A stretch of DNA of 64,000 nt from Crocinitomicaceae bacterium. Its GTDB lineage: Bacteria; Bacteroidota; Bacteroidia; Flavobacteriales_D; Crocinitomicaceae. Made by a program: the position numbers and the translations under genes. This document shows positions 2,334 to 36,740 of the stretch, in pieces (positions within the stretch are counted from its first letter, which is position 1; each line of letters begins with the position of its first letter). The DNA lies in NCBI GenBank assembly GCA_030727405.1, contig JANRBR010000039.1, positions 62,001 to 126,000 on the forward strand. The letters are read 5' to 3'. Below the pieces are notes generated by a model, which saw nothing but the letters and a program-made list of their open reading frames with translations, was not told where the DNA came from and searched no databases.

Positions 2334-4988
2334 ATGAAGCGATTGATGTATAGATTCTTGGGAGTATCAGTAGTTGGACTATTGGTGCTTTCCTCTTGTT
2401 CCCCAGAGAGATCAACTTCTACTGGTTGGAATTATAATGACTACAAGAATGGTGGTTTTGAGAAGGTTGAAGACCGAGAACAAGAAACTGGTCCTGGACT
2501 TGTCATGATTGAGGGAGGTACTTTCACCATGGGTAGAACTGAGCAAGATGTTATGTATGATTGGAATGCACGTGCAGCTCGCGTAACGGTTTCTTCATTC
2601 TACATGGATCGAACAGAGGTGACGAATTTACACTGGTTGGAATATATGTACTGGATGAAGCGTGTATACAACAAAACGTATCCGCATGTATACAAAAAGT
2701 GTTTGCCGGATACTTTGGCTTGGAGATCTGCATTAGGTTACAGAGAAAAATACGTGAATTACTATTTACGTCATCCATCATACGCAGATTATCCAGTTGT
2801 TGGAGTTTCTTGGTTACAAGCAAATGATTTTTGTAAGTGGAGAACAGATCGTGTGAACGAAGCAATTCTCGTTAGGGAAGGAATTATCGATTGGCATTTT
2901 GTAGATGATATGGATGATAAAGGTACTGGTGCAGCATATCAAGACGGTTATGAAAAAAACACTTATGTTTCAACGCCACAAAATATGTTCACTACAGAAA
3001 ATTACTTGAACGGAAATTATGTTGTTGAATCGAGAAAAGGTTTTGTCGCAACATTAAAAGGAAACGTTGTTCCGCTATTGGACGACAAAAAGCGCGCTGT
3101 ACCACGTGACCCTTATCAACTTGAAAATTATGACCCGATTTATGCAAATGAAGGCAAAACAGGAAGTAGAGCCGTTAAAATGGAAGACGGGATTTTATTG
3201 CCGAACTACCGCCTACCAACAGAGGCTGAGTGGGAATTTGCAGCACTTGGATTAATTGGAAACCTTGATGGTGGTTCAGAAAACATAAACGACCGCAGAA
3301 TTTATCCTTGGGATGGGCATTATGTTCGCCAAGAAGAAGAGCAATTTGCAGGAGCTATTCAAGCAAATTTCATCCGAGGTGGAGGAGATTTAATGGGTGT
3401 CGCTGGAAATTTGAACGACGGTGCTGATATCACCGCTCGAGTAGATGACTTCTGGCCAAACGACTTTGGTTTGTACAACATGGCAGGTAACGTATCGGAA
3501 TGGGTAATGGATGTTTACCGTCCAATGACCGGAGAAGTTGCTGATGAATTCATGCCATTCCGTGGAAACAAATACCAAACGCAATTATTGGTTCCTAATG
3601 GACTGTATGATCGACCGGTAAAAGCAAATGAGAATTTATATGATGTTCACGGAATGAAAGAATTTGTGAACGAATTTGCTCGCGTGAAATACCTATCCTA
3701 TGCGAATAAATCTTACGATGCCTCTCAAAATGGTTCAAGCAATTTCGTTGGAAACATTCCTGATCAAGCGAAAATCAACGCGGAAGCTTTGCAAAAAGCA
3801 AAAGATTTTTCTGCTTTGGTTACGGCTGCTATGAATAAGTTTACAGGGAAGGTAACCGTAGCTGAAAAACAACCAGTTACCGATGCCATGAAGGCATTTA
3901 ATGACGGAATCGCGAAAAGCGACTTCAAAAATTTAAGTGACTTACAGACTGCTGTTGAAACAAGCATAGATGACGTTGTTGCATCTGGAATAGTGGAAAT
4001 GGAAGATGTTCAAAAAGAACTTAAAAACCAACCTGCTGCCGTGCAAGGAAATGTACAACAGGGAATTGTCAACAATACTGGCATGAATTCGAAAATAAAT
4101 TCAAGACAAGATGTACGAGCTTACCAGTTCAATACACCATCTTCGTATTACATTTCGAATAACCGTGAATACAGTGTTCAAGTACGTCGTCAGTTTGAGT
4201 TTTTAGATACCTTGAATGCGTTTTTAGATACAGCAATTGTTCTTTACAATCAAGGAAGAACAGTGGCAGCATCGGCTTACATCGAGAGGGTGCTATTTAA
4301 TGAGTCTTTACCGACACAATTTAAGGATGATTATAACAAATCGAATACATCCAAGCAAATTAGAAACTTAATTGATGTTGCTTTCAACAGACCTGAAAGT
4401 GATGAAACGGAAGGATTTGGTTACCTTATCGATGAAGTAAGAAAAGCGTATTTTGGATCAGAATGTATTGATAAGCATTTTGAATCATTCTTTGCAGATC
4501 CTGAATTAACGACATGGATCATGACGTTGCGAAATGGTTTAACCGAATTCATTACGACAACAAAAGGAAACCAACGTTGGAGAAATGTGACGGTTGAAGA
4601 GAACGCAGGTCGTTTAAACTACCGCAAAGACGATTACATCGATTACATGGATGGTGATTTAGAATCTTCCATTTATTATAACAATGCGAAGACTAAAGAA
4701 TCCATCAACAATGGTTCTCGTGATGTGAAACAAGTAATGTACCAAAGCGAACATGAAAATTCCAATCTGAATGGTGACAAAATCAACTCTGGTTCAACGG
4801 GTTGGCCAACAACGTTAATTTCAGATAAATCACGTGTTTACAAAGGTGGATCGTGGGCTGATCGAGTATATTGGTTATCCGCTGGTAACAGAAGATTCCT
4901 AGATGAAGATAAGGCTACAGCTACTATTGGATTCCGTTGTGCGATGGATCGCGTCGGAAGCAGTAGGCCAAAAGGTCCTAAAGAATAA
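2334..4988 (+). CDS. gldJ: Type IX secretion/gliding lipoprotein GldJ, enlarged form
   Basis: The N-terminus has a lipobox (LVLSSC, C22), then an FGE-sulfatase-type domain starting at GLVMIEGGTFTMGRTEQDV and running through DRTEVTNLHWLEYMYW, RLPTEAEWEFAA and GNVSEWVMDVYRP (about residue 385). The domain closes only near the end with SRVYKGGSWADRVYWLSAGN (about residue 833) and ATIGFRCAMDRVG. GldJ is a periplasm-facing outer-membrane lipoprotein needed for gliding and for stability of the GldK ring. At 884 residues it is much longer than the roughly 560 residues of Flavobacterium GldJ; the extra length lies between residues 400 and 830. The gene ends at a strong terminator and is followed by murF, an order I recall from other Flavobacteria. 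Confidence 0.92.
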   Translation: MKRLMYRFLGVSVVGLLVLSSCSPERSTSTGWNYNDYKNGGFEKVEDREQETGPGLVMIEGGTFTMGRTEQDVMYDWNARAARVTVSSFYMDRTEVTNLHWLEYMYWMKRVYNKTYPHVYKKCLPDTLAWRSALGYREKYVNYYLRHPSYADYPVVGVSWLQANDFCKWRTDRVNEAILVREGIIDWHFVDDMDDKGTGAAYQDGYEKNTYVSTPQNMFTTENYLNGNYVVESRKGFVATLKGNVVPLLDDKKRAVPRDPYQLENYDPIYANEGKTGSRAVKMEDGILLPNYRLPTEAEWEFAALGLIGNLDGGSENINDRRIYPWDGHYVRQEEEQFAGAIQANFIRGGGDLMGVAGNLNDGADITARVDDFWPNDFGLYNMAGNVSEWVMDVYRPMTGEVADEFMPFRGNKYQTQLLVPNGLYDRPVKANENLYDVHGMKEFVNEFARVKYLSYANKSYDASQNGSSNFVGNIPDQAKINAEALQKAKDFSALVTAAMNKFTGKVTVAEKQPVTDAMKAFNDGIAKSDFKNLSDLQTAVETSIDDVVASGIVEMEDVQKELKNQPAAVQGNVQQGIVNNTGMNSKINSRQDVRAYQFNTPSSYYISNNREYSVQVRRQFEFLDTLNAFLDTAIVLYNQGRTVAASAYIERVLFNESLPTQFKDDYNKSNTSKQIRNLIDVAFNRPESDETEGFGYLIDEVRKAYFGSECIDKHFESFFADPELTTWIMTLRNGLTEFITTTKGNQRWRNVTVEENAGRLNYRKDDYIDYMDGDLESSIYYNNAKTKESINNGSRDVKQVMYQSEHENSNLNGDKINSGSTGWPTTLISDKSRVYKGGSWADRVYWLSAGNRRFLDEDKATATIGFRCAMDRVGSSRPKGPKE

Positions 4989-4991
4989 TTG

Positions 4992-5021
4992 AAAAAGCCC
5001 GAGCAATCGGGCTTTTTTTTT
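4992..5021 (+). terminator. Rho-independent terminator after gldJ
   Basis: A perfect 11-bp stem (AAAAAGCCCGA with TCGGGCTTTTT) with a GCAA tetraloop at 5003-5006 is followed by a T run to 5021. It lies 3 bases after the gldJ stop and just before murF, so it should end the porP-like/gldJ transcript. Confidence 0.93.
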
Positions 5022-5034
5022 GCATTTTTGCATC

Positions 5035-6312
5035 ATGGAAAGATTATTTGAACGTTTCTACGAATGTTCTGGTGTTTCAACAGATACTAGAAACATTGCC
5101 AAAGATTCATTATACATCGCGCTGAAAGGGGAGCATTTTAATGGGAATCAATTTGCCAAAGACGCCATCAATAATGGAGCAAAGTATGCGGTTGTTGATG
5201 AAATGGAACATGCAAATGAACAAAACATTTTTTACGTTCAAAATGCACTGACTTTTCTTCAAGAATTGGCACATTTCCATCGTTCGAAATTTTCCATCCC
5301 CTTTATTGGTATTACCGGAAGTAATGGAAAAACAAGCACGAAAGAACTCATTCAAGCTGTTCTTTCCAAAAAATACCGCACCCTATGTACCATTGGTAAT
5401 TTGAATAACCACATCGGGGTTCCACTCACCTTACTTCGCTTAAAAAAGGAACATGAAATCGCCATCATAGAAATGGGCGCTAATAAACCTGGGGATATTG
5501 ACGAATTATGTTCCATTGCAAATCCTACGCATGGGGTCATTACAAATATTGGAAAAGCTCATTTAGAAGGATTCAAAGATTTTGAAGGGGTATTAAAAAC
5601 AAAAAGCGAACTTTATCATTCCGTTCAAGCTCAGAGCGGAGTTTTGTTTGCTAACATGGATGATGAAATCCTGATGAAGGCTTGCAAAGACTTTCCTCTC
5701 CCCTTAATTACCTATGGCAGTCATTCGGATGCATTAATTGTAGGAGAATTAAGTCACTTGGATCCATTTGTTCATTTTTCTTGGCACAATCACAGCTACC
5801 ACTCACCTATTCTCTCTACGCATTTAGTAGGGAAGTATAATTTCAATAATTTTTTGGTGGCCATTGCCTTTGGAAATATTTTCAAGGTTTCTGAAACGGA
5901 CATCAATGATGCGGTATCCGGTTATATCCCGCAAAACAACAGAAGTCAAGTAATGAAAACCAATGATAACACGGTCATTGTTGATTGCTACAATGCAAAT
6001 CCATCCAGTATGAAGTCTGCACTGGAGTCCTTCAGTGAAATTCAAGCAGAAGAAAAAATGGCCATCTTAGGCGACATGTTGGAGTTAGGAGCAGAAAGTG
6101 TGAGGGAACATCAAGCAATTATAGACCTGTGTCATGATTTGAATATACCTTTTGTAACTGTTGGACCAATCTTTAAAGGCATTCATCCGGGAGGATTCGA
6201 AAACCAAGAATCGTTTCGTGCACAATGGCCTGAAAACAACTTAAAAAACCACATGATCTTATTAAAGGGATCAAGGGGCATCGCTTTGGAGAAATTAATG
6301 GATTTATTTTAA
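5035..6312 (+). CDS. murF: UDP-N-acetylmuramoyl-tripeptide--D-Ala-D-Ala ligase MurF
   Basis: MurF adds the D-Ala-D-Ala dipeptide to UDP-MurNAc-tripeptide in the cytoplasm, the last step in making the peptidoglycan monomer. The Mur ligase ATP-binding loop GITGSNGKTSTKE is at about residues 95-107, with EMGANKPGDIDELCSIANP and GVITNIGKAHLEGF downstream and the C-terminal domain motif DCYNANPSSMKSAL. The ATG at 5035 gives 425 residues, normal for the family; an in-frame TTG at 5020 lies inside the preceding terminator and is rejected. A near-consensus -7 box (CATTTTTG, 5023-5030) ends 4 bases before the ATG, so the gene may be transcribed from its own promoter with almost no leader. Confidence 0.96.
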   Translation: MERLFERFYECSGVSTDTRNIAKDSLYIALKGEHFNGNQFAKDAINNGAKYAVVDEMEHANEQNIFYVQNALTFLQELAHFHRSKFSIPFIGITGSNGKTSTKELIQAVLSKKYRTLCTIGNLNNHIGVPLTLLRLKKEHEIAIIEMGANKPGDIDELCSIANPTHGVITNIGKAHLEGFKDFEGVLKTKSELYHSVQAQSGVLFANMDDEILMKACKDFPLPLITYGSHSDALIVGELSHLDPFVHFSWHNHSYHSPILSTHLVGKYNFNNFLVAIAFGNIFKVSETDINDAVSGYIPQNNRSQVMKTNDNTVIVDCYNANPSSMKSALESFSEIQAEEKMAILGDMLELGAESVREHQAIIDLCHDLNIPFVTVGPIFKGIHPGGFENQESFRAQWPENNLKNHMILLKGSRGIALEKLMDLF

Positions 6313-7395
6313 TTACGAGCCGTACATCATAAGGAAAGACTTCAAAAAAGGATCCAATCCACCATCCATTACTGCGTCTACATCACCGGTTTCTGTTCCT
6401 GTTCGGACATCCTTTACCAATTTATATGGATGCATGACGTAATTACGGATTTGACTACCCCATTCTATTTTCTTTTTCCCAGCCTCAATCTCACTTCGTT
6501 TTTCCATTCGTTCACGCAATTCCAACTCGTATAATTGAGAACGAAGCAACTGCATGGCTTTTTCTTTATTGGCTAATTGAGAACGAGATTCTGAATTTTC
6601 TATGATGATTCCGGAAGGTGCGTGACGCAAGCGAACCGCTGTCTCCACCTTATTGACATTTTGTCCACCGGCTCCACCTGAACGAAACGTTTCCCAAGAA
6701 ATATCTGCTGGATTGATTTGAATATCAATGTTATCATCCACAAGTGGGTACACATACACTGAAACGAACGAAGTGTGACGTTTTGCATTTGAATCAAACG
6801 GAGAAATGCGCACAAGGCGGTGAACCCCATTTTCACCTTTCAAGTAACCAAAGGCGAATTCTCCCTCCAGTTCCAATGTCACTGTTTTCACTCCAGCAAC
6901 ATCCCCTTCTTGAAAATTCAATTCGGTGATTTTATATCCTTTTTTCTGACCCCACATGAGGTACATACGCATCAACATCGATGCCCAATCGCAACTTTCT
7001 GTCCCGCCCGCACCTGCGGTAATTTGAAGAACGGCACTGAGTGCATCCTCTTCACCTGACAGCATGTTCTTCAGTTCCAATTCTTCGATTTCGGTTAAAA
7101 TCACTTGAAATTGCTGGTCTAACTCAGCCTCGGTAGACATGCCTTCTTTTACAAACTCCATCACGACCTCCAAATCAGCAACGGCTGTTTGCACGCGATC
7201 AAAAGTATCCACCCAAAATTTTAATCCGCGAATGGATTTCATGTGCGTTTCTGCTTTTTTTGGGTCATCCCAGAAGGAAGGGTCTTGTGTTTTCAATTCC
7301 TCCTCTTTTAATTGCATGCGTTTTTCCGCAATTTTCAGATAGGTTTGAATTCCATCCACGCGTTTTAGCAAATCTTTGTGCTGTTCGATAGTCAT
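6313..7395 (-). CDS. prfB: Peptide chain release factor 2
   Basis: RF2 ends translation at UGA and UAA. The tripeptide anticodon SPF is at about residues 198-200 (VRISPFDSN) and the peptidyl-hydrolysis loop GGQ at about 243 ([16 protein letters not shown]). Length, 360 residues, is normal. The N-terminal segment reads straight through [10 protein letters not shown], where many bacteria carry an in-frame TGA and a programmed +1 frameshift, so this prfB lacks that autoregulatory site. The stop codon abuts the murF stop in a convergent arrangement with no visible terminator. A TACCTTTG promoter box ends 4 bases before the ATG. Confidence 0.97.
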
Positions 7396-28324: not shown

Positions 28325-29286
28325 TGAAAGATCACTTACGAATCGTCTTTATGGGCACTCCCGAATTTGCCGTGGGAATATTGGATGCCATCTGCCATTC
28401 TTCTCACGAAGTTGTTGGAGTGGTGACCGTTGCAGATAAACCCGCAGGAAGAGGCCAGCAAATTCAGCAGAGTGCGGTCAAGCAATACGCTGTCTCGCAC
28501 AAGCTACCTGTTTTGCAACCTGAACGCTTGCGCGATGCTGATTTTCTAGCGGAGCTAGAAACATTAAAGGCGGATTTATTCATTGTTGTGGCCTTTCGCA
28601 TGTTGCCTGATTTAGTATGGAAAATGCCGAGTATGGGCACGATTAATTTACATGCGAGTTTGCTGCCAAAATACCGAGGTGCAGCTCCGATTAATTGGGC
28701 CATTATGAACGGTGAAAAAGAAACGGGGGTTAGTACTTTTTTCATCAATGAAAACATAGATACAGGGGCCATCATTGCCCAAAAATCCATTTCCATTTCA
28801 GAGAATCTAAGCGCAGGAGAATTACACGATCAATTAAAGGCAATTGGAGCGGAATTAACAGTAGAAACGGCTAATCAAATTTGTTTAGGTACTGTAAAAA
28901 CGACCTTGCAGGATCCCAACGATTCAACTATTCCCTTTGCGCCAAAAATATTCAAGGCAGATTGCGAAATTGATTGGCAAGAATCAGCAGAATTAAACCA
29001 TAACCGAATCAGAGGCTTATCCCCCTACCCTGCTGCTTGGTGCAAATTATGGTCGCTTAAAAAATCCAATTGGATTGCCTTTAAATTATTCGACTCAATG
29101 GTGACAAATGTTGATCAAACGAAACGCACAGACGGACCTTTTTCCACTCCAGATGGAATTGTTTTCCCAAGCGGCGATGGATTTGTTCTCCTAAGAGAAA
29201 TTCAAGCGGAAGGAAAAAAACGCATGGATTACAAGTCCTTCTTAGCGGGCAACGACCTAAATGACTTGTGTTTTAATCCTTCTTAA
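28324..29286 (+). CDS. fmt: Methionyl-tRNA formyltransferase
   Basis: Fmt formylates initiator Met-tRNA. Motifs: IVFMGTPEFAVGILDAI at the N-terminus, the catalytic NLHASLLPKYRGAAPINWAI near residue 108-127, and ENIDTGAIIAQKSISI. The C-terminal domain starts near residue 205 (LSPYPAAWCKLW). Length 320 is standard. It ends four bases inside the convergent TonB-domain/barrel gene. The partner def gene is not nearby. Confidence 0.96.
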   Translation: MKDHLRIVFMGTPEFAVGILDAICHSSHEVVGVVTVADKPAGRGQQIQQSAVKQYAVSHKLPVLQPERLRDADFLAELETLKADLFIVVAFRMLPDLVWKMPSMGTINLHASLLPKYRGAAPINWAIMNGEKETGVSTFFINENIDTGAIIAQKSISISENLSAGELHDQLKAIGAELTVETANQICLGTVKTTLQDPNDSTIPFAPKIFKADCEIDWQESAELNHNRIRGLSPYPAAWCKLWSLKKSNWIAFKLFDSMVTNVDQTKRTDGPFSTPDGIVFPSGDGFVLLREIQAEGKKRMDYKSFLAGNDLNDLCFNPS

Positions 29287-30434
29287 ACGCCAAATAAAAG
29301 ACTGAAACCTACTCGGAATGGATAAATGGCAACTGTATGCCCCGTTTTGAAGAATGAATTCAGTTGGTAACTCACATGCATGCCAAAATGACCATATCCC
29401 ATGCGGACAGTAGCGTCGAGGGTCCAACGATTCATGTTAAACGCTGAAATCGTAGAATGATCGAATTGATCACCATTGGCATAGGTTCCTGTAGTTCGTT
29501 GTCTTGTTCCATAGTTAAATGAACCAATCACTCCAACGGCCATGTAGTAGCTTTTTTGAAACGTTTCGTTGAAATTAAAATCCAACAGCAACGGAATGGA
29601 GATTGATGCGACGTTCAATTTGTTTATAGTGAATTGAAACACCGTATCACTCACGGCAAAAATCGTATCCGCCGTATGTTGCAACACATAGTTATTTCTT
29701 AGGCTAAAGCTCTGGAATCCTACCCCAAATCCTGTGGTAATCCCTAATTTACTTCCCATGATTGGGAATTTTAGGTCAAAAACATTGTAGTTTAAACCGA
29801 TGGATTTCACTTCATTATTTTCCCAATATGGATGCGTGTCAAAATTCATATCTCCTTGTTCGTTCATGAACTGGGACATGTAAATATCAAAACCAGCATA
29901 GTGACCCCCAGAAAATTTTCGATAGTCTTCCTCTTCCATCATTTCTTCTTCCACTAAATCCTCTTCACCTAAACCTAAGTCCGGACCGATAAGGGCCTCT
30001 TCGATGTTAATCGGAATGCGCATTAAGGTCCTAACAGGTAGTCCATTTTTTTGTGCAGGAGTCCAATTAGGCATTTGTTGAACGACATCGATGGAAACAG
30101 AATCAATGATGTCATTGTATCCCTTTTCAACATTTATGTTACTGATTTTACCATCCTTTTCGACAATAAAAGACAAGTAAACCCGATCATCGTTAAAATT
30201 CCAAGAAAGTGTATCCAAGTATCCATCAGGAAGTTCAAAATTTAAAAAGATGAACTCTACCATTGCATCTAGTCCACCAGGGTATTCGGCTTCCTTATCA
30301 GGAAAGTTGACAATGGAATCTGGTGGAGTATTCGTAACGGCATTCGGCTCTCCTGCATTAAATTCTCCATTCACTTTTTGTGCAAGTAAAGTGGAAATAC
30401 TGATTAAAAAACTGAAGGAAAGTAGGTATTTCAT
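29283..30434 (-). CDS. TonB C-terminal domain fused to an outer-membrane beta-barrel
   Basis: A 383-residue protein with a signal peptide (residues 1-18, LLA-Q). Residues about 45-143 look like a TonB C-terminal domain: AEYPGGLDAMVEFI, RVYLSFIVEKDGKISNINV and MPNWTPAQKNGLPVRTLMRI, matching the Bacteroidota pattern of PGG, then KDG, then W.PA..NG.PV. An acidic linker (155-170) leads to a PorT/OmpW-like beta-barrel of about 205 residues ending in FSLLFGV. There is no N-terminal inner-membrane anchor, so it should be exported rather than act as a classic TonB. The gene starts 26 bases after a TPP-riboswitch-controlled receptor gene and should share its transcript. The ATG at 30434 gives the clean signal peptide. 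Confidence 0.75.
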   Translation of the reverse strand: MKYLLSFSFLISISTLLAQKVNGEFNAGEPNAVTNTPPDSIVNFPDKEAEYPGGLDAMVEFIFLNFELPDGYLDTLSWNFNDDRVYLSFIVEKDGKISNINVEKGYNDIIDSVSIDVVQQMPNWTPAQKNGLPVRTLMRIPINIEEALIGPDLGLGEEDLVEEEMMEEEDYRKFSGGHYAGFDIYMSQFMNEQGDMNFDTHPYWENNEVKSIGLNYNVFDLKFPIMGSKLGITTGFGVGFQSFSLRNNYVLQHTADTIFAVSDTVFQFTINKLNVASISIPLLLDFNFNETFQKSYYMAVGVIGSFNYGTRQRTTGTYANGDQFDHSTISAFNMNRWTLDATVRMGYGHFGMHVSYQLNSFFKTGHTVAIYPFRVGFSLLFGV

Positions 30435-30460
30435 TGGTCTTAATTTCCTCAAAAATACAA

Positions 30461-32929
30461 TTAAAACTTTAAGAGTACACGCGCCATGAAATTTCTTCCC
30501 GCTTGAGGATAATAGAAATTCTCTGTGGTTGTTTGTCCGCCATAAACGTATGAAAAAGTATAACCATTATTCTCATAAAGTTGATTAAAGGCATTGTTTA
30601 CCATCAATCCAAGTTGAATTTCCTTGCAAAACTTATCAAAAATGGAATAATTGATTTGTAAATTGGAGAAATTATAAGGGTCGATGCTGCGTTGGACATT
30701 GCCCGTATTATCTAAATATTGCCTAGCAACGTATTTTGTCATCCAAGATATTTGTAAGTTCTCCAATGGCATCCATTCTATCCCAACGTTTCCAATAACA
30801 TTTGGTGAAAAAGACATATCGGTATTATTGTGTGAAATCACTTGCTGGGTGTAATAAGGCAAGGTATCCAAATAGACATCAACGGATTCGTTGAATTGAG
30901 CGACTTTGTTTTGACTAAGTGTGAGTCCACCTGTCAATTTTAATTTTTGATCAAATCGATATCCGCCATAAACTTCAATACCTAGGCGATGGCTTTTTGC
31001 AACATTGGTATGAATATAAGCCCCTACATCATTGATTGCACCGGTTAACAATAACTGATTTTTGTAATTCATGTAATATAAATTGGTGGTAAATGTCAAG
31101 CGATTCGCATTGACTTGGTGACCAAATTCAAGATCCCTCAATGTTTCAAAAGTCGGACGATTTTGCGCTGTACTTTGAACAAAATCAGCTCGAACAGGTT
31201 CCCTGTGGCTAATACCATAATTCATAAAAATCATTTGTTGGGTGTTGATTTTGAAGCTACCTCCAACTTTTGGATTGAAAAAATTAAATTGTACGTCTTG
31301 GGTCACATCCGCAGGAAAACCATTTACCAATTCCTTGCCAATAAATGCGTAATCGACATGTCTAAATTGCAAATCCGTATAGACATCAAAACGATCTCTT
31401 TTGTAAACAGCTTTCAGGTAAGAACTGGCTTCCGTTTTTCTTGAATCGTTGTTGTAATAACGCTGGTAAATTTCACTGTTTGATGCATATTGTGCCCAGA
31501 CCAATTCCCCAAAATGACCTCCAAAATAAGTGTTGGCGGACCCACCCCAAACAAAATCAAGATGAGTAGTTGGTTTGTAGGTGATTCCATACACTGCCCC
31601 GATATAATCATTTTCCAGCCATAAACGACGGATTAAATCCGTTTGTTGAATGGTATCTGATCCAATCATGACCGGATTCAAACCATAATCCGCTAAATTT
31701 TCTCCTTTTCGGTATTGCTCATAATATCCACGGCCGTAGGTATAATGTCCCGCAAGGTTTAATATCAACTTATCATTGAAGGTATGTGTGAAATGCAATT
31801 GGTAATTGTCCTGCTGGTAATGATCCACTTGATTTTCATACGTATAATAATTATAGGTTCTTCCTGAATTCAATAGGTTTTCTCGTTCCTCTGAGCTTAG
31901 TCCATTCCGATCCGCGTAGGCATTCATAGCTGTTGAGTCACCGGTAATGCGGCTTTCTGGTGTTCCATACCAAGCTTGGTAGGTGATTTCTTTTCCGCTA
32001 TAAATAATCGCTTTTAAAACCGATTTATTTCCAATGTATGCTCCAGAAAGGAAGTATGATTTCAAATCCGAACTGGCGCGGTCTAGAAAACCATTCGACT
32101 GAATGCTTGACATTCTAGTCTCAAGGGAAAAATGTTTATTGATGATTCCTGTCCCCGCTTTAATCGTGGTTTTAGACGTTCCAAAAGAACCAAAAGATTG
32201 ATCAATGGATCCAAATGGTTTTTCAGAAATATCCTGTGTTTTAATGTTCACACTTGCACCAAATGCCGCAGCACCATTGGAGGATGATCCGACACCGCGT
32301 TGAATTTGAATGTTTTCAATGGAAGAAGCTAAATCAGGCATATTGACCCAATAAACTGCGTGAGATTCGGGATCATTGACAGGGATTCCATTGATGGTTA
32401 CATTGATGCGTGTCGCATCTACCCCTCGAATACGAAGTCCGGTGTACCCTACTCCTGCACCAGCATCTGAAGTTGTCAACAAGGATGGTGTTGCTTCCAA
32501 AAGAATCGGAATGTCCTGTCCGAAATTCTTGCGTTCCAATGGATTGATTCTTCGAATTAAGATCTGGGAGGTATTAAAATCGGACAAGCGCGTGGTATTC
32601 ACATGAATGTCCTCCAAAGTTTTCATTCCAGTGAAAAGAAGGACTTTGACCTCATCCATGGATTGAGCAGAAATCGTCAACGATTGTGGTAAAAAACCCG
32701 GCTTTTCGACCATGATTGTATACGTAGAATCCGATGCAGGCAATTGGTTTATCTCAAATTTCCCCTTGGCATCTGAATTAACTTGGACATTTGAATTCAA
32801 AACTGAAATTTGAGCCGCTGGAATAACTGCGCCCGTTCGATCTTCCACGACACCATGAATCCTTTGTTGAGTAAAGGCTATGTGACAAACACTTAAAAAT
32901 AGTAAGCTGGTAATAATTCTTGTTTTCAT
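30461..32929 (-). CDS. TonB-dependent outer-membrane receptor, thiamine-regulated
   Basis: An 822-residue receptor: signal peptide to about residue 20, a carboxypeptidase-regulatory-like domain (VVEDRTGAVIPAAQISVLNS), a plug with GVGYTGLRIRGVDATRINVT, NGIPVNDPESHAVYWVNMPD and IENIQIQRGVGSSSNGAAAF, then a 22-strand barrel ending in Phe (NFMARVLLKF). No SusD partner is present. A TPP riboswitch in its leader indicates that the cargo is thiamine or a thiamine precursor; TPP-controlled TonB receptors are known in Bacteroidota. It is followed by the TonB-domain/barrel gene. Confidence 0.92.
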   Translation of the reverse strand: MKTRIITSLLFLSVCHIAFTQQRIHGVVEDRTGAVIPAAQISVLNSNVQVNSDAKGKFEINQLPASDSTYTIMVEKPGFLPQSLTISAQSMDEVKVLLFTGMKTLEDIHVNTTRLSDFNTSQILIRRINPLERKNFGQDIPILLEATPSLLTTSDAGAGVGYTGLRIRGVDATRINVTINGIPVNDPESHAVYWVNMPDLASSIENIQIQRGVGSSSNGAAAFGASVNIKTQDISEKPFGSIDQSFGSFGTSKTTIKAGTGIINKHFSLETRMSSIQSNGFLDRASSDLKSYFLSGAYIGNKSVLKAIIYSGKEITYQAWYGTPESRITGDSTAMNAYADRNGLSSEERENLLNSGRTYNYYTYENQVDHYQQDNYQLHFTHTFNDKLILNLAGHYTYGRGYYEQYRKGENLADYGLNPVMIGSDTIQQTDLIRRLWLENDYIGAVYGITYKPTTHLDFVWGGSANTYFGGHFGELVWAQYASNSEIYQRYYNNDSRKTEASSYLKAVYKRDRFDVYTDLQFRHVDYAFIGKELVNGFPADVTQDVQFNFFNPKVGGSFKINTQQMIFMNYGISHREPVRADFVQSTAQNRPTFETLRDLEFGHQVNANRLTFTTNLYYMNYKNQLLLTGAINDVGAYIHTNVAKSHRLGIEVYGGYRFDQKLKLTGGLTLSQNKVAQFNESVDVYLDTLPYYTQQVISHNNTDMSFSPNVIGNVGIEWMPLENLQISWMTKYVARQYLDNTGNVQRSIDPYNFSNLQINYSIFDKFCKEIQLGLMVNNAFNQLYENNGYTFSYVYGGQTTTENFYYPQAGRNFMARVLLKF

Positions 32930-32934
32930 TTTCT

Positions 32935-32988
32935 AAAAAATTAAACAAGAACAAGGGGCTAATTCTTGGTGAATAAATAACAATTAGC
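32935..32988 (-). promoter_or_regulatory. Candidate expression platform of the TPP riboswitch
   Basis: On the minus strand GCTAATT (32982-32988) can pair with AATTAGC (32958-32964). Alternatively CAAGAA (32963-32968) pairs with TTCTTG (32946-32951) ahead of a T-rich stretch (32935-32945). The two helices share bases 32963-32964, so they exclude each other like antiterminator and terminator. The terminator stem is short (6 bp), so this is only a model. Confidence 0.4.
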
Positions 32989-32991
32989 TCG

Positions 32992-33066
32992 GTCATCTTC
33001 CCTGCGCAGGCATTATCCTACAGGTTCAATGGGTGTAATCTCAGCCTTTCGGCACCCCTTAGAGAC
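32992..33066 (-). promoter_or_regulatory. TPP riboswitch (THI element)
   Basis: On the minus strand the conserved thi-box strings appear in order: AGGGGTGCC, GGCTGAGAT, ACACCC, TGAACCTG, GGATAATGCC and GCGCAGGGAAG. P1 can form from GTCTCT (33061-33066) with AGATGAC (32992-32998) with one bulged T. It lies 62 bases upstream of the receptor ATG and immediately downstream of a -7 box, so the transcript begins at or near the aptamer. Confidence 0.97.
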
Positions 33067-33070
33067 GGGA

Positions 33071-34145: not shown

Positions 34146-36740
34146 ATGAAGTGGAATTACGGAATAATATTCTTTTTTTTCTGGTTGAGTGTACCATTCG
34201 TGAATGCTCAAGTCTTGGATGATTTCGCCGACGGGGAATTTTCTAGTAATCCAACATGGACCGGAAACTCCAATGTCTTCATCGTAAATTCTAGTCAACA
34301 ATTGCAATTAAACAATGTAAACGCGGCCACATCTTATTTAAGCATCCCACATGGGCTTTCAAACTTGCAAAACCACGAATGGCATTTCTGGCTGAAACAA
34401 AACTTTTCTCCATCCTCTAGTAATTTCGGTAAAGTGTATTTGAGCGCCGACAACAATGACCTTAACCTCGTGCAGAATGGGTATTATTTGCAATTTGGCG
34501 AAGCTAATGCAACAGACGCCATTCGCTTATTCAAACTTGAAAATGGCATTTCTACCCTGCTTTGTTCGGGGATGGATGGTCAAATTGCCAACAGTTTTAC
34601 CGTTGGAATTAAAGTTGTTTTGACATCAAGTAATGTTTGGGAACTGTATGCCGACCTCAGCGGAGGAATGAACTATGGCCTGCAAGGAAGTTTCACTGAT
34701 TTAAATGTCCTCACTGGTACAACTTTCGGATATTTGTGCACCTACACCGCCAGCAACGCAACGAAGTTTTTTTTGGACGATGTGTTCATTGGATCCCCTA
34801 TTTTAGATGTTCAGCCTCCTCAATTGCTACAAGCCACGGCGATTTCTTCCAGTCAAATGGATGCACTCTTTAATGAAGCATTAAGTGCTTCCAGTGCGAA
34901 TGAGTTGGCCAATTATGCCATTATTCCATTTAATTCGTTCGTATCGGTTCAGCAAGATGCCCTCAATCCAGCTTTGGTTCATTTGAACACCACATTTCCT
35001 TTAGTAAACGGGAACACATACACATTATCTACGTCGAACCTATCTGATTTATCAGGAAACATTTCAGCCAATCAGACGGTAAACTTTAATTATTTGATAT
35101 CTGATACAGCCATTAATGGGGACGTCATCATTTCAGAGTTTTTTCCTGATCCAAGTCCTGTCATTGGTCTACCCGAAGTTGAATACGTAGAAATTTTCAA
35201 CCATTCTTCCAAAGTTTTTCATTTGTTAGACTGGACCATTAGCGATGGATCTTCCAATGGTACAATAGGTGATTACTGGTTATTGCCGGGTTCCTATCTT
35301 GTTCTAACTGCAAACGCCAATATTGGCATGTTTACGAATGTGGCGGGTGTCACCAGTTTTCCCAGTTTAAATAATGCGGGTGATCAACTTATTTTGAGCA
35401 ATCAAATAGGGACCCAACTAGATCAATTTAATTACACCGATGACTGGTATCAAGACAATAGTAAAAAAGATGGAGGTTATAGCCTTGAACGCATTCTTTT
35501 AGATGATCCTTGTTCCAACTACGACAATTGGAAGGCGTCGAATGATTTATCAGGAGGCACTCCAGGAACCATCAACTCCGTTTTTAGTGCTGCTCCAGAT
35601 CAAAGCAAACCAAGTTTTAGTTCGCTCATTGCCCTGAACCCAAATTTCTTGGAAGTAACTTTTACGGAAGGTATGGATTCTAGTAGTTTATCGAATGCAT
35701 TCATTTTGACAACACCCAATTTGAGTATTCAGCAAACATATGTTCAGGGAGTGAATGATAATCCGAATGGTCCGCCACAATTAATCATTCAATTTAATGA
35801 GAATTTTACGGCCTCCACACCATATGAAATTCAAATAGGACCAGTAAGTGATTGCTGGCAAAACGACACAACGCTTTATGGTCAATTTATCTTGCCAGAG
35901 CAGGCCGTAGCGGGCGATATCATCGTTAATGAAATTCTTGCAAACCCCATAAATGGCGGACAAGATTTCATTGAATTATACAATCGCTCATCAAAGGTTA
36001 TCGATTTAAAGGAATGGCAATTTGCCAATTTTGACAATGACACAGTTGCCAACATGAAAACCATTCCATTCCATTTTATTATAGAACCGATGTCTTATGT
36101 TGCCATCAGCGAGGATACCAACTTTCTTCTTCTAAACTATCCAAGTACCATTCCTGGCAGGCTCATTGAAATGGACATGCCTTCGTACAACATAGACTCT
36201 GGGACCGTGTATTTATTGAAAGATGGTGAGCAAATAGATCGTGTTTCCTATCACTCGGACTGGCATTTTTCACTGCTCGATAACACAGATGGGGTATCTT
36301 TGGAACGTTTGCTACCTGATGCTTTTTCGAATCAGGCAACAAATTGGCATTCGGCCGCTGAATCTATTGGATTTGCAACGCCAGGAAGAATCAACTCACA
36401 ATTTCAATTCGGAGAAACTACGGAATCCATCAGCCTGCAAAACGACGTTTTTTCACCCGATCTTGATGGATTTGAAGATGTTTTAATGGTGAATTATTCC
36501 TTTTCAAAAGCAGGTTTGTTGGGGAAGGCACGGGTCTTTGATGATATCGGTCGAGAGGTAAAAACCATTTTCTCCAATGAATTGTTAGCGACTTCTGGCT
36601 TTTTTAGTTGGGACGGTATCATGAACGAACAAGTGAAAGCACCTATTGGAGTTTACATTTTACTTGTAGAAGTTTTTTCGACCGACGGAAGTGTTATTTT
36701 AACAAAAAAAATTGCCTTTACAATAGCGGGTAAATTGTAA
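34146..36740 (+). CDS. Large secreted protein with two lamin-tail domains
   Basis: An 864-residue protein with a signal peptide (FFFFWLSVPFVNAQ). Residues 22-220 are a beta-rich region resembling a lectin/laminin-G fold. Two SbsA-type Ig-like segments (about 222-320 and 480-585, each rich in LxSxxxxF) alternate with two lamin-tail domains: GDVIISEFFPDPSPV at about 326 and GDIIVNEILANPINGGQDFI at about 590. The last 100 residues (VFSPDLDGFEDVLMVNYSFS, then ending in FTIAGKL) are an FlgD-like/gliding-associated Ig module, which often ends type IX cargo in Bacteroidota; whether it is a sorting signal here is uncertain. It is probably displayed on the surface or released. The ATG at 34146 gives the clean signal peptide. 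Confidence 0.75.
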   Translation: MKWNYGIIFFFFWLSVPFVNAQVLDDFADGEFSSNPTWTGNSNVFIVNSSQQLQLNNVNAATSYLSIPHGLSNLQNHEWHFWLKQNFSPSSSNFGKVYLSADNNDLNLVQNGYYLQFGEANATDAIRLFKLENGISTLLCSGMDGQIANSFTVGIKVVLTSSNVWELYADLSGGMNYGLQGSFTDLNVLTGTTFGYLCTYTASNATKFFLDDVFIGSPILDVQPPQLLQATAISSSQMDALFNEALSASSANELANYAIIPFNSFVSVQQDALNPALVHLNTTFPLVNGNTYTLSTSNLSDLSGNISANQTVNFNYLISDTAINGDVIISEFFPDPSPVIGLPEVEYVEIFNHSSKVFHLLDWTISDGSSNGTIGDYWLLPGSYLVLTANANIGMFTNVAGVTSFPSLNNAGDQLILSNQIGTQLDQFNYTDDWYQDNSKKDGGYSLERILLDDPCSNYDNWKASNDLSGGTPGTINSVFSAAPDQSKPSFSSLIALNPNFLEVTFTEGMDSSSLSNAFILTTPNLSIQQTYVQGVNDNPNGPPQLIIQFNENFTASTPYEIQIGPVSDCWQNDTTLYGQFILPEQAVAGDIIVNEILANPINGGQDFIELYNRSSKVIDLKEWQFANFDNDTVANMKTIPFHFIIEPMSYVAISEDTNFLLLNYPSTIPGRLIEMDMPSYNIDSGTVYLLKDGEQIDRVSYHSDWHFSLLDNTDGVSLERLLPDAFSNQATNWHSAAESIGFATPGRINSQFQFGETTESISLQNDVFSPDLDGFEDVLMVNYSFSKAGLLGKARVFDDIGREVKTIFSNELLATSGFFSWDGIMNEQVKAPIGVYILLVEVFSTDGSVILTKKIAFTIAGKL

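Follow-up and report, generated by a model that had tools for sequence, protein, structure and literature searches.

The DNA that was analyzed, called the window in the following, is a stretch of 64,000 nucleotides from a Crocinitomicaceae bacterium, the genome of which comprises 2,233,639 bases on 42 contigs. An operon on the minus strand contains a TPP riboswitch aptamer, the gene for a TonB-dependent receptor and the gene for a protein in which a TonB C-terminal domain is fused to an outer-membrane beta-barrel. These features and the parts of the fusion protein are as follows:

32982..33069, minus strand: TPP riboswitch aptamer (RF00059, 48.7 bits against a Rfam gathering threshold of 54.3, E 1.6e-8)
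30461..32929, minus strand: TonB-dependent receptor, presumed thiamine receptor, 822 residues, with CarboxypepD_reg, plug and barrel domains (Pfam; TPP riboswitch upstream)
29283..30434, minus strand: whole gene of the TonB_C domain fused to an outer-membrane barrel, 383 amino acids (ATG at 30434, stop codon at 29285-29283)
30381..30434, minus strand: signal peptide at residues 1-18, with the cleavage site in front of Q19 or close by (by eye; model helix at residues 3-16)
29988..30299, minus strand: TonB C-terminal-like domain, residues 46-149 (PF03544 and predicted fold)
29907..29987, minus strand: acidic, predicted disordered linker, residues 150-176 (sequence; pLDDT below 50 at residues 153-172)
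29286..29906, minus strand: beta-barrel, residues 177-383 (eight model strands; OmpA Z 13.9; PF13568 below threshold)

A preliminary description of this DNA had placed the fusion at these coordinates, on this strand and in this frame, 26 bases behind a TonB-dependent receptor, and this agrees with the gap at 30435-30460 between the stop codon of the receptor and the start of the fusion. A simple consensus scan, the counts of which were near chance, indicated no terminator-like or promoter-like site in this gap. Downstream lies a convergent formyltransferase gene, and four bases (29283-29286) at the stop codons belong to both this gene and the fusion. The TPP riboswitch claimed in front of the receptor was also recovered, as a match aligned over the full length of RF00059; its score falls below the Rfam threshold, and this is why the default scan of the window returned no riboswitch. 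The aptamer in all likelihood works like a TPP riboswitch. Elsewhere in the window, positions 34146-36740 encode a large protein that has two lamin-tail stretches and, below threshold, a type IX secretion signal domain.

The fusion protein and its predicted structure

The N terminus of the fusion reads by eye as a hydrophobic start ending in A-Q, with no cysteine for a lipid anchor. The profile searches for TonB_C and OMP_b-brl families, which the preliminary description had proposed, gave a match to PF03544 (TonB_C) at residues 84-143 with 30.5 bits (cut-off, 24.6; E 5e-7) and a match to PF13568 (OMP_b-brl_2) at residues 172-358 with 24.3 bits, which is below the cut-off of 27; the relative L183 reached 45.9 bits, above the threshold, for the latter family. 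Among 23 aligned full-length proteins, the window's protein included, 21 matched TonB_C (best, 3.5e-17) and 21 matched OMP_b-brl_2 (best, 5.2e-12) at an E value of 0.1 or lower in Pfam. No M56 peptidase domain was matched in the fusion or its 22 aligned relatives; TonB_C and OMP_b-brl_2 were the only Pfam families matched. A profile of the aligned fusions, compared with solved structures, identified 8 sequences at an E value of 0.01 or lower, all of them TonB and one a TonB-ferredoxin fusion.

The structure was modeled with AlphaFold2 from a 33-sequence alignment (mean pLDDT, 81.9; pTM, 0.53), with low confidence at residues 16-36 and 153-172. At about residues 46-149 the model contains a TonB C-terminal fold, with Z scores of 9.1 to 5lw8 (H. 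pylori TonB-CTD; rmsd 2.5, 88 residues), 8.9 to 6i97_D (TonB bound to FoxA) and 8.3 to 9ddz. Since TolA domain III (1lr0) is resembled as well, with a Z score of 8.2, TonB is not singled out by the fold alone. The last strand of the domain is kept at residues 136-143, and the Y of the YP motif of TonB is replaced by L. Only about 27 residues separate the signal peptide from the TonB-like domain, and the longer acidic linker comes after the domain. The barrel half of the model (residues 171-383) matched OmpA (1qjp) with a Z score of 13.9 over 134 residues at an rmsd of 3.1. The best Foldseek matches were small barrels, Ail, OmpA and OmpX, and their query-normalised TM-scores were low, about 0.2, which is expected when one domain of two is matched. 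The preliminary view of a TonB C-terminal domain behind a signal peptide, followed by an acidic linker and a barrel, is thus borne out by profiles and model, with the signal peptide judged by eye. By our count the barrel of the model has eight strands, so that both barrel ends and the TonB-like domain should face the periplasm, and this would place the domain on the periplasmic side of the outer-membrane barrel. A gene-call or assembly artefact was ruled out as the origin of the fusion, with the same fused frame found in many assemblies.

Gene order and thiamine supply in the genus

The receptor was found in 71 of 86 genomes of the genus (E value of 1e-100 or lower) and in 46 of the 50 genomes of good quality. 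The gene after these 71 receptors was the fusion in 48 cases, a barrel without the TonB domain in 16 and neither in 3 (G003, G030 and G012), and in 4 cases the contig end made the downstream side unreadable. Coordinates alone had given 47 fusions, 14 barrels alone and 10 cases of neither, and these ten were then read individually. In G024, the fusion begins after the receptor, followed by the contig end; in G615, a barrel-only gene starts before the contig end, and likewise in G618, judged from its first residues. The unreadable sides are those of G032, where the contig stops inside the receptor, and of G601, G001 and G621, where the coordinates place it at the end of a contig. A fused or unfused barrel consequently follows 64 of the 67 receptors with a readable downstream side, which supports a partnership of the barrel with the receptor. 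The survey of fusions beside receptors that had been suggested at the outset found the fusion directly next to 48 of these 67. The TonB domain is not essential to the role of the barrel, because 16 operons keep the barrel without this domain.

Fused genes also occur away from a receptor match, in G003, G014, G030, G621 and G195, and both fused genes of G631 lie beside receptor fragments. The fusion of G014 adjoins mutS (Pfam), the neighbor in G621 resembles mutS by eye, and G030 has a gene of equal length nearby. Among the loci examined by name, a second fusion lineage lies near mutS and away from the thiamine receptor in L041 (Pfam) and in L042 and L185 (both by eye). As a separate observation, a gene for a ZIP-family metal transporter is situated near the receptor operon in L040, L049 and L068.

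In 26 receptor rows, after two of 28 had been dropped as incomplete, the presence of the fusion was compared with that of a short dedicated TonB bearing a membrane helix. The short TonB was absent in 20 of 20 fused rows and present in 6 of 6 barrel-only rows, a pattern explained by ancestry because each trait changes once on the tree. Outside these rows, G003 and G604 possess both the fusion and a short TonB, and G605 and G031 are barrel-only without a short TonB.

The RF00059 model gave 71 matches in 68 of the 86 genomes, above the threshold in 42 of the 86. A riboswitch is located within 400 bases upstream of 64 of the 71 receptors; for six of the other seven, the receptor match is situated no more than 75 bases from a contig end at the 5' side, and the seventh is devoid of its first 441 residues. 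Seven RF00059 matches lie elsewhere, one of them, in G596, directly before a PnuT-family gene, and some of the matches away from a receptor are probably on split contigs. ThiC, the key gene for vitamin B1 synthesis, was found in none of the 86 genomes, compared to matches in 13 of 14 control genomes, and a PnuT-family importer was found in 75 of the 86. Uptake of thiamine should therefore matter for the genus. These uncultured aquatic bacteria, presumably of freshwater origin, probably rely on the import of thiamine or of a precursor.

Relatives and evolution of the fusion

A search of 150 genomes of the family, which were 19 of this genus and 131 of 23 other genera, found full-length matches, among the matches listed, all within the genus, and those listed from other genera start at profile position 100 or later. 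Among the matches listed from 395 genomes of the phylum, the only full-length ones were from G000 and G020, both of the genus. Few candidates were scored per genome in both searches, so that rare cases could be missed, and within these limits a general occurrence of the fusion in the phylum was rejected. By our count, 27 of 80 named loci carry the fusion, some of them perhaps from outside the genus because these loci cannot be matched to the codes of the genus genomes. Relatives with names come from metagenome bins, with labels such as Crocinitomicaceae, Cryomorphaceae and Flavobacteriales and a few implausible titles.

TonB_C proteins were also inspected in 16 further regions, 15 outside and one inside the genus, which had been picked mainly for long TonB_C frames; by eye, no barrel fusion was present among the long frames listed. 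Many of these frames are M56/BlaR1-like and others are different, again by eye. TonB_C proteins with signal peptides and lipoprotein-like ones occur in these bacteria, and in L169 and L175 several adjoining genes encode small TonB_C proteins that start like a signal peptide and have no other membrane helix. The preliminary statement that an inner-membrane helix normally carries the TonB C-terminal domain was thus incomplete for these bacteria, since secreted and lipoprotein-like forms and, in other Bacteroidota, M56/BlaR1-like fusions (by eye) exist beside those with a helix. The unusual feature is the outer-membrane barrel as the anchor of the TonB_C domain. No TonB_C-barrel fusion is reported in the titles and opening lines of abstracts of the open-licence literature that was searched. 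What is new here is the topology, built from known domains and combined with a conserved partner.

The barrel occurs with other N termini and other neighbors. In the 17 regions examined in other genera of the family, the barrel has short, different N-terminal parts, and in a locus labelled Bacteroidales (L097, 3878-5398) a barrel of the same family carries an N-terminal DUF2807 instead of TonB_C. Barrel relatives in L063, L149, L060, L159 and L160 belong to gene sets that also encode an ECF-type sigma factor and a protein some 340 to 350 amino acids long, and the barrel relative in L063 (set at 3772-6485, G000:C2) is a paralogue in the window's own genome. The proteins of this size in L063, L149 and L160, three of the five, were scanned and had no Pfam match. 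Such a set is possibly a signaling unit of sigma factor, anti-sigma factor and barrel. The neighbor that was checked for the barrel relative in L163 is a DUF2141 protein.

In the tree of barrels, for which 8 of 47 rows from L098 to L143 were kept (none of the 47 is fused), six changes between the fused and unfused state are needed; one of them is owed to the truncated L065, which received the barrel-only label because its contig starts within the gene, and starred branches force three. L085, without a TonB domain, is positioned next to L162, which has one. The TonB_C tree was built from 96 columns and 71 rows, with long branches and a bootstrap that had not settled. The 35 fused domains do not form one clade in this tree (AU p 0.00035), so that acquisition or replacement seems to have happened more than once. 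With support of 100/99, the domains of L041 and L042 fall into one group with several TonB proteins bearing a membrane helix and one protein lacking it. Their identity to the nearest protein is 59-60%, and one of the grouped TonB proteins is from L042's own genome (L198, G030). The TonB tail in this group may have been captured. For the window's domain, the group joins secreted forms at 54/82, and the highest identity, 45%, is shared with a helix-bearing membrane TonB.

Values of dN/dS were 0.03-0.19 for the TonB domain (0 for one near-identical pair), 0.02-0.15 for the barrel and 0.06-0.81 for the linker; they refer to pairs with usable dS, and many pairs had a dS above 1 or were saturated, the saturated ones giving no value. 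The TonB domain is under purifying selection.

Possible role and known systems

It is likely that the fusion works together with the thiamine receptor as its functional partner. Of the roles suggested in the preliminary description, that of a local adaptor, of a competitor or of a sensor, each may apply. The established parts of this interpretation are both domains, the gene order, the riboswitch, the conservation and the purifying selection. In the best explanation, the barrel would keep the TonB C-terminal-like domain on the periplasmic side, tethered by a flexible acidic linker. The domain would dock by strand pairing, as real TonB does, on the periplasmic N-terminal part of the neighboring receptor, probably the TonB box, and would occupy or present this box until the inner-membrane TonB takes over. 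Such docking is somewhat less likely than not; the membrane topology, receptor binding, use of the TonB box and a hand-over rather than competition are inferred. According to excerpts of the report on FoxA, the C-terminal domain of TonB pairs its strand with the TonB box, the strands being parallel (PMC6699858). The receptors were compared by eye, leaving out 16 named rows that were mostly near-duplicates, and all fusion-bearing receptors compared share one N-terminal element in front of the plug, a box-like stretch; the TonB box looks diverged in L049, L056 and L092. Receptors of the L029 clade (L029, L030, L033 and relatives) have lost CarboxypepD_reg but keep the TonB-box-like stretch and the fusion, which indicates that CarboxypepD_reg is not the required partner. 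With the box-like stretch as the only shared element before the plug, docking at the box is the most economical mechanism. Observations against docking include the 16 operons that keep receptor and barrel without the domain, the place of L085 beside L162 on the barrel tree, the other genes behind the receptor in G003, G030 and G012, the fusions situated away from a receptor, the L in the YP motif, the diverged boxes of the three loci and the resemblance of the model to TolA domain III. The unfused orthologues indicate that the domain modulates the function and does not create it; its effect may be help, as a placeholder with a hand-over, or restraint, as a competitor.

Alternatively, the domain may serve in the periplasm as a brace or hook, with only the barrel serving the receptor. 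Its binding partner would then be the Ton motor, the inner-membrane TonB itself, peptidoglycan or some other protein of the periplasm. A periplasmic anchor is common in OmpA-like barrels, several forms of TonB_C domain that lack an inner-membrane helix exist in these bacteria, and fusions occur away from the receptor as well; nevertheless, a brace is somewhat unlikely, given the position of the fusion directly after 48 of 67 readable receptors and no match to a peptidoglycan-binding family in the window's protein or its 22 aligned relatives (Pfam). Chance domain shuffling could also have attached a neutral passenger to a barrel that partners the receptor. The 16 of 64 receptor-adjoining barrel genes without the domain and the variable N-terminal parts across the barrel family, including the DUF2807 of L097, agree with a passenger. 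Its retention in the other 48 of 64 does not, nor do its low dN/dS values, even with many pairs of high or saturated dS, nor the AU test, with its indication of repeated acquisition or replacement, so that a passenger is quite unlikely.

A sensor, in which barrel and periplasmic domain report the state of the receptor or of the envelope to a regulator, is more unlikely still. The five barrel relatives beside an ECF-type sigma factor, one of them in the window's genome, point in this direction, but the checked neighbor in L163 does not, no sigma factor was present among the neighbors scanned for the thiamine operons of the window, L026, L040, L048, L049 and L068 (L026 has an AraC-type regulator), and control in these operons is by the riboswitch. 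As regards docking itself, it is rather unlikely that the outer-membrane-tethered domain acts as a clutch that holds the TonB box of the thiamine receptor and controls when the inner-membrane motor engages. If this were true, a receptor-gripping domain would act without an attached motor and would apparently have been taken over from TonB on more than one occasion.

The arrangement bears on the question of how TonB selects and engages the right one of many receptors. A natural TonB-like tail at the outer membrane that is co-encoded with one vitamin receptor, with natural orthologues that have no tail, makes the role of TonB-box occupancy from the receptor side directly testable. It is also a case of an OmpA-like barrel that acquired a module of the Ton system, in the presumed thiamine route of bacteria without detected ThiC.

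The fusion shares the C-terminal fold and the Pfam family with TonB, and the domains of L041 and L042 cluster with helix-bearing membrane TonB proteins. It differs from TonB in that a proline-rich segment spanning the periplasm is absent and the anchor is an outer-membrane barrel placed after the domain; the N terminus, where TonB has a transmembrane helix engaging ExbB/ExbD, reads by eye as a cleavable signal peptide. With OmpA-type proteins it has in common an eight-strand barrel with a linked periplasmic domain (Z 13.9, from the model only), but the order of the domains is reversed, and a TonB-CTD-like domain takes the place of the C-terminal peptidoglycan-binding domain of OmpA, which is absent in the fusion (Pfam). 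The M56/BlaR1-type and secreted TonB_C proteins of Bacteroidota are likewise TonB_C proteins outside canonical TonB; unlike the fusion, the M56/BlaR1-type ones showed no barrel by eye in the long frames listed.

OMthi of Bacteroides thetaiotaomicron is likewise a TonB-dependent thiamine receptor under a TPP riboswitch, which, according to excerpts of the report, becomes important at low thiamine when synthesis has been deleted, and not on its own (PMC5613172). These excerpts deal with OMthi, pnuT and tnr3, and no TonB_C-barrel partner is mentioned in them, in contrast to the operon of the window. The nearest published relatives found are the OMP-TolB-like proteins, which, as far as the excerpts of their description go, also combine an outer-membrane barrel with a periplasmic domain from the Ton/Tol world; their domain is TolB-like, whereas that of the fusion is a TonB/TolA tail (PMC12204202).
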